A DNA stretch of 37,759 nucleotides from a virus. Below, in pieces: positions 181 through 35,604 of this stretch. The notes under the pieces are model-generated. The model saw only the letters and a program-made list of their open reading frames with translations, was not told the origin of the DNA and did not search any database. Where the stretch lies: positions 1-37,759 of IMG/VR virus record IMGVR_UViG_3300048033_000223, one strand, 5' to 3'. Each line of letters starts with the position of its first letter. Within the stretch, counting starts at the first letter, position 1. Both the position numbers and the translations under genes were made by a program.

Positions 181-213
181 AAACCTAAAAAGTTTTCTTG
201 TATATACATAGGA

Positions 214-280
214 TATACTTATATTCTTAGTATATAAAGTATATATCCCTTTAGGGATATATACTGATATACTTAGTATG
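214..280. promoter_or_regulatory. Palindrome cluster upstream of the late genes
   Basis: Three elements sit together. TATACT (214-219) and AGTATA (229-234) form a split palindrome. A perfect 13-bp inverted repeat, AGTATATATCCCT (238-250) and AGGGATATATACT (253-265), has a 2-base spacer. TATACTTAGTATG (268-280) is one base from the exact palindrome TATACTTAGTATA found three times at 35512-35579. The arrangement suggests an operator, promoter or replication site for the terminase side of the genome; no host-type -33/-7 promoter was found here. Confidence 0.6.
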
Positions 281-358
281 TAGACTTAGGATATAGTTGT
301 GTTTATAGTGCCAATGAATCTCTTAATTCATTATCTTGTATATTAGATAAATGATACT

Positions 359-28210: not shown

Positions 28211-28403
28211 ATGGCCTTATAGATTTCGCTTTGTCCGGATCTAATTCAGCGATCCGATCGATAAGCGCATTCTCTTCAGCATAGGCTTCTTGTATTTCTG
28301 CTAAAGTAGAATCTGTTCCTAAATTCGTAAATATAGATGCCATATCCTTTAAGATCTGGTCTATATGTGTTCTTGTTAATTTACAATTATCGTAGCGTTT
28401 CAT
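28200..28403 (-). CDS. Hypothetical protein
   Basis: A 67-residue helical protein of unknown function (HIDQILKDMASIFTNLG, then IQEAYAEENALIDRIAELDPDKAKSIRPYVD). Its first codons contain a TTGTAAATTA motif on the minus strand, directly after the stop of the resolvase gene, so the true start could be further downstream than the ATG at 28403. Confidence 0.55.
   Translation of the reverse strand: MKRYDNCKLTRTHIDQILKDMASIFTNLGTDSTLAEIQEAYAEENALIDRIAELDPDKAKSIRPYVD
28377..28386 (-). promoter_or_regulatory. TTGTAAATTA motif, copy 7
   Basis: The only exact minus-strand copy. It starts at the last base of the resolvase stop codon (TAA, 28389-28387) plus one, inside codons 6-9 of the next annotated frame. 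Confidence 0.4.
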
Positions 28404-28782
28404 ACTCAGTATAGTTGTGTAATTTAAGCGTTACTGAAACCTCGTCCTTTTCAATAGGTTCGTCATCATGTTTAACACGGATGTTAAGCCCTTTAAAATA
28501 CTTCTTTGAATCATCGTTGACGTACCCGTTATCTTTGAGATAATCCGCGAGAAACTTAATAACAAGTATAACATTATCGCAGTCGTAGCGAGTATTATGA
28601 ACGACGTCAATCTGAAAAGTTTCAGCATGAAATTTATCAAACGCTTTAAGTTGTTTCTCAATATGTTCATTGTAATCTTTTTTGTATTTGATCCTAACAG
28701 CAAAGTGTTTACCAGCGTAAAACTTATTTAGGCTCGGTGGTTTAGGTAATGAAAAAGTTACTTCTTTATATTCTTCTTTCAT
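28387..28782 (-). CDS. RusA-like Holliday junction resolvase
   Basis: An enzyme that cuts four-way DNA junctions formed during replication and recombination. The 131-residue product begins with EVTFSLPKPPSLNKFY, matching the RusA N-terminus, then RYDCDNVILVIKFLADYL (two catalytic-type Asp) and GYVNDDSKKYF (third acidic site). The Lys that in E. coli RusA follows the DxD motif by four residues is not in that position; a Lys occurs a few residues later. An upstream ATG at 28797 would add five residues; 28782 gives the smaller overlap with the previous gene. Confidence 0.75.
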   Translation of the reverse strand: MKEEYKEVTFSLPKPPSLNKFYAGKHFAVRIKYKKDYNEHIEKQLKAFDKFHAETFQIDVVHNTRYDCDNVILVIKFLADYLKDNGYVNDDSKKYFKGLNIRVKHDDEPIEKDEVSVTLKLHNYTEYETLR

Positions 28783-29281
28783 AGTATGGTGCGCCATAAG
28801 GCCCTTGCTTTAGATCCCAGTGACGTATTTCGTCAACGGTAAATTTATCTACAACATATTCTGTTGGAGACGTAAACAGGAGGAACACTATAATATCCGA
28901 ATCTTCTTTCTCAAGAGCCTTCGAGTTAAATTTATAGGACCCTTCGCCGGCCTTAATTCCTATCTTTTGTCGCTGTCCATTTTTAACAACAGAAAGGTCG
29001 GTATCGTCCTTGACTAACCGACCTTCCTTAATAAGTGTTGACGCAGTATACGACGTATGAGTGGGGCTGATTTCATAGTAGTACCGAGTCAACAACTCTC
29101 CTATGATGCCAATGTATTCCGTGTAGTATTCACGATCTACCTCTCCAAGTAACAGAGATTGTTTAACACCTTTTCTTTGTTTGCTTGTACCTGCATATCT
29201 TTCACGATTAATAGCGACACGTCTCCTGGTAATGTCGTGAGCATAATCTTTAATGAAAGGAGGTATCTCTACAAACTTCAT
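28766..29281 (-). CDS. Putative PD-(D/E)XK-fold nuclease
   Basis: A 171-residue basic protein. YIGIIGELLTRYYYE, DDTDLSVVKNGQRQKIGIKAGEG in two pieces, and the preceding helix suggest a restriction-endonuclease-like core: a Glu in the first helix, an Asp in 'DTDL' and a Lys in 'IGIKA'. In place of the usual (D/E)xK this site reads GIK, so the catalytic acid is missing or moved. It could be a DNA-binding or nicking relative. It overlaps the RusA-like gene, so both probably act in DNA processing. Confidence 0.45.
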   Translation of the reverse strand: MKFVEIPPFIKDYAHDITRRRVAINRERYAGTSKQRKGVKQSLLLGEVDREYYTEYIGIIGELLTRYYYEISPTHTSYTASTLIKEGRLVKDDTDLSVVKNGQRQKIGIKAGEGSYKFNSKALEKEDSDIIVFLLFTSPTEYVVDKFTVDEIRHWDLKQGPYGAPYYERRI

Positions 29282-29823: not shown

Positions 29824-30789
29824 TTAAAATTGTAGTTCTTCTTGTGATGGCGTTGGTATTATTTCCGGCTTGTTTGGATCGGGATATGCAAATACCTTTT
29901 CTCCATTACCACCTTTTTCATAATACCTGTTGCTTAATTTATCGTAGTATAATGTAACTGATCCTAACTTACCCACGATTTTAGGTTTGGCTTTTACAAT
30001 AGTAATCTCAACCTGGTTCGCTTCGTATGGCACACCGTTAGAATCTTCAAGTCCAAAAGGACATCTCCATACGTTAAGTATCATCATACCTTTACGGCTC
30101 CACTGCATTCCTCCTGCAATATCGTTCATCGTTGGCTTATCCACATAAGGTATCCCGTTCTTGTACTTGGCCTGTTGGTGCTTGGTATGTACAGTGACCA
30201 CAGTATGGTAATTGTTATCTGCGCTATGCTTGCGTACCTTTGTGAGTACCTGTCCAATAGCGATGTCGTCACGAACACCTGTAGAAACGTCTGTTTTTAT
30301 TTCTGTAAATGGATCTATAAAACATCCGTCTATCTTGACCTCCTGCTCTATCTCCTTAACGCAGTTAAAGAACGCTTCAACGCTGAGGTCTTGAAGACCG
30401 GAGTCTATTATGTAAAAGTGATCATTGATGAAATCAACAGCACGCTGGGCTTCTTCATTGGAGGCAGTCAACTTATCGTTTACCAGGTATGGCTTGCGTA
30501 GATACACCCAAAGTAATTCTGCAAAAACCTCTGTTGGAGATCCAGTCTCCGGGCTGTACACGGCCCACTTCCACCCACTGTACTCAGATAGGTTCATCAT
30601 TATCTCAAAACCAAACTGCGACTTACCTTGATGCGCTCCAGCATAGATGTAAGTAGTGCTTCCTTTCTTCATTGAGTATTTGTCAAAGAGTGACCAGAAT
30701 CCGGTCCAGGCACCTTTGCTTACTCCATGTTCACGAAGTTCGGTTAGTGAGTTCTTTAATTCCTCGGCTCTAAAAATAAAGTTTCTCAT
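29824..30789 (-). CDS. Replicative helicase, DnaB/RecA-type
   Basis: A 321-residue ATPase of the RecA-fold helicase family, without a primase or N-terminal DnaB domain. The N-terminal linker GAWTGFWSLFDKYSMKKGSTTYIYAG leads to Walker A GAHQGKS (51-57). A Walker B-type strand (CFIDP, D159) and the H3-like segment HTVVTVHTKHQQAKY follow, and the C-terminal part (DIAGGMQWSRKGMMILNVWR ... VEITIVKAKP) is typical of DnaB-like phage helicases. It would unwind DNA at the phage fork; no phage primase or polymerase is visible. Confidence 0.85.
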   Translation of the reverse strand: MRNFIFRAEELKNSLTELREHGVSKGAWTGFWSLFDKYSMKKGSTTYIYAGAHQGKSQFGFEIMMNLSEYSGWKWAVYSPETGSPTEVFAELLWVYLRKPYLVNDKLTASNEEAQRAVDFINDHFYIIDSGLQDLSVEAFFNCVKEIEQEVKIDGCFIDPFTEIKTDVSTGVRDDIAIGQVLTKVRKHSADNNYHTVVTVHTKHQQAKYKNGIPYVDKPTMNDIAGGMQWSRKGMMILNVWRCPFGLEDSNGVPYEANQVEITIVKAKPKIVGKLGSVTLYYDKLSNRYYEKGGNGEKVFAYPDPNKPEIIPTPSQEELQF

Positions 30790-32852: not shown

Positions 32853-33098
32853 TTAAAAGATATCGTCTTCTACTGCATTCGTCGCTTGTGCTGGACCATT
32901 TGCAGCCATAGGCTGCTCAAGTTCTGCGTAGTAACCACCAGCCTTCTTAGACTTTAAGTTGATGTTTACCCAACCACGATCGTTTAAGTGTTCTTTAAGA
33001 AGGTTAATGTCCTTCTCGTTAAAACCGACGTTAATGATCTCACCATACTTGGCATTCTTAACTCGGGTACTTCCTACAAAAATCTTGTCTTGTGACAT
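32853..33098 (-). CDS. Putative single-stranded DNA-binding-like protein
   Basis: An 81-residue protein: KIFVGSTRVKNAKYGEIINVGFNEKDINLLKEHLND, then GWVNINLKSKK and a low-complexity tail that ends in VEDDIF. The acidic-hydrophobic tip resembles the DDIPF tip through which SSB proteins recruit partners, and the small beta domain could be an OB fold, though shorter than a normal SSB. It is flanked by recombination and DnaA-like genes. An alternative is a replication accessory of unknown type. Confidence 0.45.
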   Translation of the reverse strand: MSQDKIFVGSTRVKNAKYGEIINVGFNEKDINLLKEHLNDRGWVNINLKSKKAGGYYAELEQPMAANGPAQATNAVEDDIF

Positions 33099-33129: not shown

Positions 33130-33555
33130 CTATTCTAAAATCAATTTAGAGAGGTGATTAACTCTTTGTTCTAAGCGGATCATGCGTGTCTGCATGTTGT
33201 CTACTGTTTGACCTAAGTCAGTGCTGTCATCAGCGCTTTGTTTCAAAATGCCATTTAACTTTTTGTAGTTAAAAGCATAGTGACCATCCGCTAATCTATT
33301 TTCGTGGCTGTGTATGTACTCGTATGCCATTCGCTGGCTCACTCCAAGTATCTTACCTACCTCGACACTACTATAGTTATGTTCGGATAAAACACGAGCG
33401 ATCAACGCTCTTGTTGTAACCACCTTTCGGTTCTTACTATTTTCAGTCACTTTGTCTACCGGCACATCCGTAAGGTTACAGGCAGTCTCGATGATGAAGC
33501 GCTCCATAGGACTATAGTTCTCCCACATGAGCATAGTACGGTCTAAATTCTCCAT
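33130..33555 (-). CDS. DnaA domain IV-like DNA-binding protein, first copy
   Basis: A 141-residue protein. Residues about 40-88 (RKVVTTRALIARVLSEHNYSSVEVGKILGVSQRMAYEYIHSHENRL) in sections resemble the helix-turn-helix of DnaA domain IV ('R.iaiyL..e.t..s...Ig..fg.rdhstV.ya...i'), without its ATPase domain. The C-terminus (VDNMQTRMIRLEQRVNHLSKLI) is a short coiled coil for dimerisation. It would bind phage or host DNA, possibly at an origin. It overlaps the exonuclease gene by 44 bases. Confidence 0.6.
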   Translation of the reverse strand: MENLDRTMLMWENYSPMERFIIETACNLTDVPVDKVTENSKNRKVVTTRALIARVLSEHNYSSVEVGKILGVSQRMAYEYIHSHENRLADGHYAFNYKKLNGILKQSADDSTDLGQTVDNMQTRMIRLEQRVNHLSKLILE

Positions 33556-34267
33556 TGAGGAATAATTTTTCGTAAAGATTAATAGATTTGTCCAGTTCCC
33601 TCGCCCCGAACTCTAAGAATGCATCTGAGGCTTTGTATATACCCACCTCATAAGGGAATTCTTTTTCAATTACTAAGAAGTAAAACTCAACGCAATCGAA
33701 GATCTCGGAGTAAAGGTATGCTTGCTGTGCGTACATCCACTTAGCATTGCGAACCCATTCATCCAAAGGCTTTGCTGTAGTCTTTAGATCAACCAGGTAC
33801 TTTCCGTTGATACCTTCAACTATTGAATCTGCTTTACCTTTTAACTTAACAATTTCTCCAGATTCTAACGACCACTCCATTACGCCAGGAACCTCCGGCT
33901 TAAAGTCAAACCCCATTAGATCTATGACTTGATCGACCTTGCATAACTTATCGTACATGCCTTGTACACAATCATAATCCTTTGTAGGTAAAACAAGTTT
34001 ATCGCTGTGTTCAGCCTTAAACTCTTTGTAGTCGTTTCCTCGTCTCGTTCCGTTCCACTTGACTGAAATGTCTTTGCCTTCAAGGAACATAGAGTGTAAT
34101 GCCTGGCCCACATCAAAGTAAGAGGCACCTGGCCAGGACCACTTACCTTGTCTCCACAAGTGAAACTTGGTAGGTGATTTACGCATCAACTTTAGCGAAC
34201 TATTTGAAAGGTAAGACCTGTCAGCATAGTAAGCCTCGTCGTCATTAAAGCGAGTTACATCATCCAT
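33512..34267 (-). CDS. PD-(D/E)XK exonuclease (RecE/lambda-exonuclease type)
   Basis: A 251-residue nuclease. It begins with SYLSNSSLKLMRKSPTKFHLWRQG and contains GQALHSMFLEG (H58), an acidic residue in EWSLE (E131), KGKADSI (D147), YLVDLKTTA (D160, K162) and YAQQAYLY (Q182, Y186), the order expected for PD-(D/E)XK exonucleases of recombination. It would resect 5' ends to give single strands for the annealing protein encoded just upstream. The junction with that gene is ATGA-like. Confidence 0.85.
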   Translation of the reverse strand: MDDVTRFNDDEAYYADRSYLSNSSLKLMRKSPTKFHLWRQGKWSWPGASYFDVGQALHSMFLEGKDISVKWNGTRRGNDYKEFKAEHSDKLVLPTKDYDCVQGMYDKLCKVDQVIDLMGFDFKPEVPGVMEWSLESGEIVKLKGKADSIVEGINGKYLVDLKTTAKPLDEWVRNAKWMYAQQAYLYSEIFDCVEFYFLVIEKEFPYEVGIYKASDAFLEFGARELDKSINLYEKLFLNGEFRPYYAHVGEL

Positions 34268-34809
34268 TACGCAAGAATTGATTTCTTCTGCTCTTCGTTC
34301 ACTTCGTAGTTAGCAAGTGCTTTTTCAACAGCGGCTTTCTTACCGTCTTTAACAGCAGCCTTCATCTTTTCGATTACTTCGTCAGTAAGTTGCTTCTTTG
34401 CTACTTCAGCAGGCTTCTTAGCCGGTGCAGCAGTCTTACTTTCTTTAGTGTTCTGCTTGGCGATGGCGATAGAAACTTCGTTAGAACTTGCAATCGAAGT
34501 GTCAATACCAATACCGAGATTAGCCAATGCACGGCCCCAGGCACTTGTTTCACAATTCTCCACATAACTTGTTTTGTTTATGTAAGAAGATGATTTGTCT
34601 TCCTGGGCAAAACCAGTTGCTACAACTGCACCTTCGCTGTTTAACACTGCTGCTTTGATCACACATGAATCTGCATCTAAATGCACTACATCCGAAGTGA
34701 GTGACCACCCTTCGTAGTTTCCACTCTCGCGGAAATACTTAATACGTTCGTTGACCTCGACATAGTTCTTGCCTTTAATGTTGGTCGTCTTAAATTGATA
34801 ACGTGACAT
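34267..34809 (-). CDS. Putative single-strand annealing protein (ERF/Rad52-like)
   Basis: A 180-residue protein: FKTTNIKGKNYVEVNERIKYFRESG, then SCVIKAAVLNSEGAVVATGFAQE and SSSYINKTSYVENCETSAWGRALANLGIGID in parts. The 'YVENCETSAxGRALxxLGIGxD' helix is characteristic of annealing-type recombinases related to ERF/Rad52. A basic Lys/Ala tail follows. Together with the neighbouring exonuclease it forms a RecET/Redαβ-like recombination pair for genome concatemers and repair. The family assignment is by pattern only. Confidence 0.65.
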   Translation of the reverse strand: MSRYQFKTTNIKGKNYVEVNERIKYFRESGNYEGWSLTSDVVHLDADSCVIKAAVLNSEGAVVATGFAQEDKSSSYINKTSYVENCETSAWGRALANLGIGIDTSIASSNEVSIAIAKQNTKESKTAAPAKKPAEVAKKQLTDEVIEKMKAAVKDGKKAAVEKALANYEVNEEQKKSILA

Positions 34810-34839
34810 ATATAATAAAATTGGTTACTGAATTAATGC

Positions 34840-34880
34840 TTGGTTGAAGGGGACGAGGCCACCCCTTCCTTTAAAACCAA
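34840..34880. other. Hairpin between the annealing and DnaA-like genes
   Basis: AAGGGG (34847-34852) and CCCCTT (34862-34867) form an inner stem; outer bases TTGGTT (34840-34845) and AACCAA (34875-34880) also pair. On the minus strand it follows the stop of the 34947-35486 gene and lies 30 bases upstream of the annealing-protein start, so it may limit read-through between them. Confidence 0.5.
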
Positions 34881-34946
34881 ACCATGCTTAACATGTACAA
34901 TGAACACCTCGTTCTGTTTAACCTATACGAATATACTAAAAAATTG

Positions 34947-35486
34947 TTACCAGGCAATACCCGATAGTTTTTTATTTAGATTACTATTTTTAACTACTTC
35001 TTTACTGAGTTCAATGTTTAATGTTTCCACCTTATCATTGAGTTCCTCAAAATGGCTCATGGTTTCATTGCGCTCCACGATCAACTCTCTATTCATTCGG
35101 GCTAACTTCATTAGCCTTACACGAAGTTCTTTATTCTCGTCCTTCAAACCTTCCCGGGAAAAAAAGTCAATGTCCGTTACGAGTATATCTGAGATATCCA
35201 TGTAGATGTTTTGGTAGACCTTTGCGTAGTTCTTATCAAACCTCATATTGGCTTCGTGAGACTTTTGAGCGTGTATTACCGACGCATGGTCCCGGTGTAG
35301 TAGATTACCTATCGCTTTAAATGTAAGGCCGGATATCTCTTTAGCGGCTACCATGAACGCGTGTCTATAGACCACGTTTCTTCTATTCCTACTGTCATCT
35401 AAGCCGTGCGTCCTTACTATTTGCTTCCAATACTCTTCGAGTTGGTGCTGCTGGTTTACACGTTCTATAATATCTACTCTATTCAT
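34947..35486 (-). CDS. DnaA domain IV-like DNA-binding protein, second copy
   Basis: A 179-residue protein. VVYRHAFMVAAKEISGLTFKAIGNLL precedes RDHASVIHA (65-73), which is very close to the DnaA signature in which these residues contact the DnaA box. There is no AAA+ domain. From about residue 110 a long coiled coil begins (LKDENKELRVRLMKLARMN ...), which could oligomerise it. Upstream lies a cluster of TATACTTAGTATA palindromes that could be its target. Probable role: origin recognition, or recruitment or blocking of host initiation. Confidence 0.7.
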   Translation of the reverse strand: MNRVDIIERVNQQHQLEEYWKQIVRTHGLDDSRNRRNVVYRHAFMVAAKEISGLTFKAIGNLLHRDHASVIHAQKSHEANMRFDKNYAKVYQNIYMDISDILVTDIDFFSREGLKDENKELRVRLMKLARMNRELIVERNETMSHFEELNDKVETLNIELSKEVVKNSNLNKKLSGIAW

Positions 35487-35511
35487 TTTTTCTTTTTTTC
35501 TTGGATTTCTA

Positions 35512-35579
35512 TATACTTAGTATATATTATATACTTAGTATAGAAACCCTTATAGGGTTTCTATGATATACTTAGTATA
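35512..35579. promoter_or_regulatory. Palindrome cluster upstream of the DnaA-like gene
   Basis: TATACTTAGTATA occurs exactly at 35512-35524, 35530-35542 and 35567-35579. Between the second and third lies an 11-bp inverted repeat, ATAGAAACCCT (35540-35550) and AGGGTTTCTAT (35554-35564). The order palindrome, CCCT/AGGG repeat, palindrome also occurs at 214-280. It is likely an operator, promoter or origin region. Confidence 0.65.
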
Positions 35580-35604
35580 TAGTGGTGTTTAGTGTGAATT
35601 CTAT

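Follow-up and report, generated by a model that had tools for sequence, protein, structure and literature searches.

Two small genes in a viral genome sequence encode proteins, P1 and P2, each predicted to consist of a stand-alone DnaA domain IV and a C-terminal coiled coil. They are found in an operon of apparent replication and recombination genes whose order is kept in other phages. This operon and the late operon are each headed by an array of palindromic repeats. The arrays keep these two positions in related phages, and the repeat differs between clades yet agrees between both arrays of one genome. P1 and P2 probably belong to a switch by which the phage itself controls its replication or gene expression. 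There is about an even chance that the arrays are bound by P1, P2, or both, acting as initiator and/or operator proteins in a replication-recombination programme of the phage itself. The sequence analyzed, called the window below, is the whole stretch of 37,759 nucleotides at positions 1 to 37,759 of IMG/VR virus record IMGVR_UViG_3300048033_000223.

The two DnaA domain IV proteins and their operon

The open reading frames of P1 and P2 are both present on the minus strand where the original prediction had placed them (Table 1). P1, the first gene after the repeat array, encodes 179 amino acids, with domain IV at approximately residues 14-103 and the coiled coil at residues 116-178, and contains the sequence RDHASVIHA. 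The Pfam profile PF08299 (Bac_DnaA_C) matches P1 with 34.2 bits (E 2.7e-8), above its curated cut-off of 31.5 bits. P2 has 141 amino acids, with domain IV at approximately residues 16-106, and the first 44 bp of its gene lie within the exonuclease gene. With the same profile the P2 of the window reaches 20.2 bits (E 6e-4), which is below the cut-off. In profile comparison P1 and P2 match each other too weakly to count for or against an origin by duplication.

AlphaFold2 models of P1 (mean pLDDT 81.6) and P2 (82.3) were built from alignments of viral relatives. When the models are compared with the PDB, the top six entries for P1 are all DnaA (Z 8.1-10.1). For P2, six DnaA entries (Z 10.4-14.3) are followed by the first non-DnaA entry at Z 5.6. 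The predicted model of P1 aligns with 1j1v over 87 residues (Z 10.1, 2.4 Å) and that of P2 over 91 residues (Z 14.3, 1.5 Å). DnaA domain IV ranks first for both proteins, and the predicted structures settle their identity. The sub-threshold score of the window's P2 would fit a chance similarity of the common helix-turn-helix, but PF08299 matches all eight of the P2 homologues (8/8; best E 2e-6), and DnaA entries lead for both proteins, for P2 with a clear gap. Chance similarity is therefore extremely improbable.

No AAA+ domain is present in either protein; both are too short for one, and no AAA+ profile matches them. The C-terminus is predicted as one long helix in each (residues 116-178 of P1 and 91-140 of P2), with more hydrophobic residues in heptad positions than in shuffled sequences (p 0.02 and p <0.001, respectively). 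The original prediction of two DnaA domain IV-like proteins with coiled-coil tails and without the ATPase domain thus stands.

Both genes are under purifying selection. Their substitutions are mostly synonymous, and thus P1 and P2 are real genes. The basic loop and the helix-turn-helix are among the parts kept by this selection. P1 has diverged far more than any other gene of the operon: between the window and a relative (L003) P1 is 45% identical and its operon neighbours 69-88%, and between L003 and another relative (L004) P1 is 60% identical and the neighbours 91-98%. Positive selection on P1 was considered and rejected, as its dN/dS of 0.21 does not exceed 1. In the part of P1 that encodes the domain, dS is raised, which points to exchange or to a relaxation of constraint. 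Searches of isolates gave nothing closely related to P1 or P2, and searches of bacterial genomes gave no close relative of P1.

From its head, the operon consists of the array, P1, an annealing-like protein, the exonuclease, P2, and an SSB-like protein, with a DnaB-like helicase further on in the same leftward gene run. P1 and P2 flank a recombination pair, as originally described. The annealing-like protein, which sits between P1 and the exonuclease in all relatives, is a putative annealase judging from its Rad52/ERF-like motif. It matches NCBIfam slr1353 weakly; no curated family matches it above its cut-off, and PDB profiles gave nothing meaningful. The SSB-like assignment is likewise putative and based on gene position. 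The order P1-annealase-exonuclease-P2-SSB-like is kept among the IMG/VR relatives and in a distant phage, G047. Sigma-70-like promoters are fewer in the region than expected. A RusA-like Holliday-junction resolvase is encoded at 28387-28797 of the window, in the same leftward gene run.

Table 1. Positions of P1, P2, their operon neighbours, and the repeat arrays in the window
Feature	Position	Strand	Description
Array 2	203..293		degenerate copies of the array 1 palindrome (203, 222, 268, 281) around hairpin AGTATATATCCCTTTAGGGATATATACT
DnaB-like helicase	29824..30789	-	phrog_239 DNA primase/helicase (E 1.6e-18); phrog_19 DnaB-like (E 4e-10)
Small SSB-like protein	32853..33098	-	after P2 in all relatives (synteny)
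P2	33130..33555	-	second stand-alone DnaA domain IV with C-terminal coiled coil (family profile matches, model)
RecE/exonuclease VIII-like PD-(D/E)XK nuclease (DUF3799)	33512..34267	-	PF12684 (E 8.7e-19); phrog_412 exonuclease VIII (E 7.8e-35)
Single-strand-annealing-like protein	34267..34809	-	Rad52/ERF-like motif SAWGRALANLGIGID; phrog_11717, unknown function (E 6e-35)
P1	34947..35486	-	stand-alone DnaA domain IV with C-terminal coiled coil (Pfam, model, structure comparison)
Array 1	35511..35581		three exact TATACTTAGTATA palindromes and a central hairpin, directly upstream of P1

Many phages of this broad class carry stand-alone DnaA domain IV proteins, and the earlier view that the two proteins are unusual fails. 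In a sample of 23 phage contigs longer than 20 kb, which is biased towards this broad phage class and whose members have only the GP88 gene in common with the window's relatives, such proteins are found in 19, and two contigs have two. A DUF3799 exonuclease is found in 14 of the 23, and in all 14 the DnaA domain IV gene is on the same strand. In nine of them such a gene lies immediately downstream of the exonuclease, and in others one is found 1.3-2.8 kb upstream (for G045, only if its contig ends are joined). The window fills both slots around the exonuclease, so the domain alone is ordinary and the pair is a variant.

Both slots are likewise occupied in G047 (IMGVR_UViG_3300022921_000024), whose large terminase is 74% identical to that of the window. 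Its P1-like protein has 154 amino acids (25% identity over 57 residues, E 3e-5) and its P2-like protein has 142 (26% identity, E 3e-20), again with a 44-bp overlap between its gene and that of the exonuclease. The annealase and exonuclease are 60% and 45% identical to those of the window, and the SSB-like protein and the helicase are also present.

Paired repeat arrays

The palindromes of array 1 start at 35512, 35530, and 35567, and the hairpin is ATAGAAACCC-TAT-AAGGGTTTCTAT. Three exact copies of TATACTTAGTATA are observed and 0.003 are expected in order-3 Markov sequence, so the palindromes first noticed at 35512-35579 are real. Array 2 is upstream of a late operon that starts with a small ORF (359-679) followed by terminase. 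G+C-rich stretches are found at both contig ends (37500-37690 and 1-150 of the window). In four relatives (G001-G004) the region matching the window ends is continuous, with array 2 closely preceded by a GP88 (PF17338) gene, and the window contig is therefore probably missing a stretch between its ends.

Every relative checked has an array immediately upstream of P1, and in G001 and G002 both arrays are found at the same places as in the window. G047 resembles the window in having the P1/P2 pair in the same operon and the arrays at the same two positions, but its repeat is CTATATAGT where the window has TATACTWAGTATA, and its recognition helices are different. Thirteen copies of CTATATAGT are found in the G047 genome, all within the two arrays (0.37 expected), and the window-type site is found nowhere in this genome. 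G004 also has arrays in both positions, where ATATTAGTAATAT-like sites partly take the place of the palindrome; its array 2 (L078 8130-8290) is made of such sites and may represent an intermediate step of the repeat change. Most arrays include an inverted repeat whose arms vary with the pairing kept (AAACCC...GGGTTT, CTCTCT...AGAGAG, GTAGACCTCT...AGAGGTCTAC). Because the repeats switch between phages and match within a genome, a phage-encoded binder that changes with its sites is indicated. Paired arrays are nearly absent from bacteria, being found at four places among 84,980 bacterial genomes, all Firmicutes. This argues against a host factor, and a host-factor site was rejected as an explanation.

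Arrays of TATACTWAGTATA are also found outside the relatives of the window. In a second phage group (L039, L042, L043, L045, L047, L049) they have 14-bp spacing, and in G010 of this group one array is upstream of a helicase-primase gene and one is ahead of structural genes. A DnaA domain IV protein is found in four of the six second-group records; it has 161 amino acids, contains KHHTSVLHN, and is encoded directly downstream of the exonuclease. A third group (G009, G011, G014-G017), with palindrome arrays in L041, L044, L046, L050, L051, L081, and L082, has TATACTWAGTATA arrays, and the DnaA domain IV protein was not detected there. None of nine control-palindrome contigs has a DnaA domain IV protein, and three isolates that have one lack such arrays.

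Co-occurrence of palindrome and DnaA domain IV was dropped as proof of binding: with a base rate of 19/23 in related phages, the domain is so common that its co-occurrence with arrays means little. GP88 was also rejected as a correlate, since all three array-bearing groups have GP88 and an array is found at only one of 75 unrelated GP88 loci.

Candidate readers of the arrays

In the proposed mechanism, P1 and P2 would be sequence-specific DNA binders, with a helix-turn-helix and a basic loop in domain IV and a coiled-coil tail through which they most likely dimerize; the palindromic sites fit such dimers. As members of the phage's replication-recombination operon, one or both would recognize the palindromes that precede the P1-annealase-exonuclease-P2 genes and those that precede the late operon. 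Binding would mark a phage origin and/or act as an operator, tying early and late expression to replication, and P1 and P2 would stand in for host DnaA and its AAA+ machinery. Such an origin or operator role is plausible because P1 and the late operon are each preceded by a position-conserved array, directly so in the case of P1, and the suggestion that the proteins recognize a phage origin gains by this. In the window clade and in G047 alike, the repeated sites are beside a candidate initiator gene, as is typical of iterons.

The P2 recognition helix reads VSQRMAYEYIHSH throughout the window clade, in which the repeat hardly varies; in G047 it is DLKVSHTYVMSH, changed as the repeat is. The P1 recognition helix varies even among phages with identical sites. 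P2 is thus mildly favoured as the reader. More tentatively, P1 and P2 may form a two-protein, ATPase-free DnaA-type system, in which both bind the same fast-switching repeats at the origin/early and late operons. This lineage-private initiator-site code would coordinate recombination-dependent replication with late transcription.

Arrays without DnaA domain IV in the third group and isolates with the domain but without arrays count against P1 and P2 as readers. In the third group another, unrelated protein must read the palindrome, and another phage protein, known or unknown, could be the array binder in the window as well. P1 and P2 would then have another task in replication or recombination, such as loading the annealase/exonuclease or the helicase. 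The P1 helix that varies over constant sites and the tight tie of DnaA domain IV genes to the exonuclease across phages agree with this, but the selection on the basic loop and helix-turn-helix and the array that immediately precedes P1 in all the relatives checked do not, and such a division of labour is a possible, less probable explanation.

It is also conceivable, with a probability well short of even, that P1 and P2 are purely transcriptional regulators, the DnaA-type domain being a re-used helix-turn-helix and the arrays being operators at the early and late operon heads. There are two arrays, one per operon head, and array 1 is inverted relative to P1 between the window, L015, and L016 on one side and the G001/G002 lineage on the other (window 35500-35600 vs L064 10200-10370), which fits symmetrical operators. 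DnaA itself also acts as a transcription factor (PMC8203912). However, the annealase, exonuclease, SSB-like protein, and helicase share the operon, and operators do not usually have a central hairpin whose arms change while their pairing is kept. Both of these explanations overlap with or rival P1 and P2 as initiator and/or operator proteins.

The original prediction had also offered host-directed roles, in which the proteins occupy host DnaA boxes or capture host DnaB. DnaA-box-like sites with at most one mismatch number 75 in the window (94.5 expected); since the boxes are not enriched, the blocking of host boxes is unsupported. Exact TTWTNCACA is found three times in the window, an exact DnaA box is not found in G047, and the box cluster typical of a DnaA origin is not found in the window. 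At the positions of the base-contact residues D433, H434, and T435 of E. coli DnaA, the window's P1 has D/H/A and thus retains the D and H, but the P1 of five or six relatives has H/H/A and every P2 of the window clade has Q/R/M, so that neither protein keeps the three residues. The contact between DnaA and DnaB runs through DnaA domains I and III. Both domains are absent from P1 and P2, and the phage encodes its own DnaB-like helicase. The exceptional divergence of P1 might suit a host-directed factor; on balance, host takeover is improbable, and neither proposed role is upheld.

Relation to known systems

P1 and P2 share with DnaA domain IV (PF08299; PDB 1j1v, 3pvp) a fold of approximately 90 residues, including the basic loop and recognition helix. 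They differ from DnaA in lacking domains I-II and the AAA+ domain III, in their altered base contacts (D/H-H-A in P1, Q-R-M in P2), in the added coiled-coil tail, and in the lack of DnaA-box enrichment. The repeated sites and an A+T-rich stretch beside a DNA-binding protein of a replication operon resemble iteron-type origins with a nearby initiator gene, such as lambda O and its iterons. Unlike these, the window has two arrays, the second at the late operon, its palindromes surround a hairpin, and its role in initiation is a proposed one.

Stand-alone DnaA domain IV proteins have already been annotated as 'DnaA' in several isolates: Polaribacter phage P12002L/S (PMC4615864; phrog_30669), Olleya phage Harreka_1 (gp24), and Pelagibacter phage HTVC203P (gp22). 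Like P1, these proteins (145-177 amino acids) match Pfam above the cut-off, and in Harreka_1 and HTVC203P, as in the window, exonuclease and annealing genes lie in the same region of the genome. They differ from the window in having one copy, no flanking pair, and none of the TATACTWAGTATA arrays. The new part is the DNA repeat arrays.

Phage 'DnaA' annotations have so far been listed without function. The conserved pairing with exonuclease and annealase, together with arrays that keep their position and switch their repeat jointly within each genome, turns this label into a concrete, testable system. Such a system would provide natural variants in which the specificity of the DnaA DNA-binding domain changes without the ATPase.
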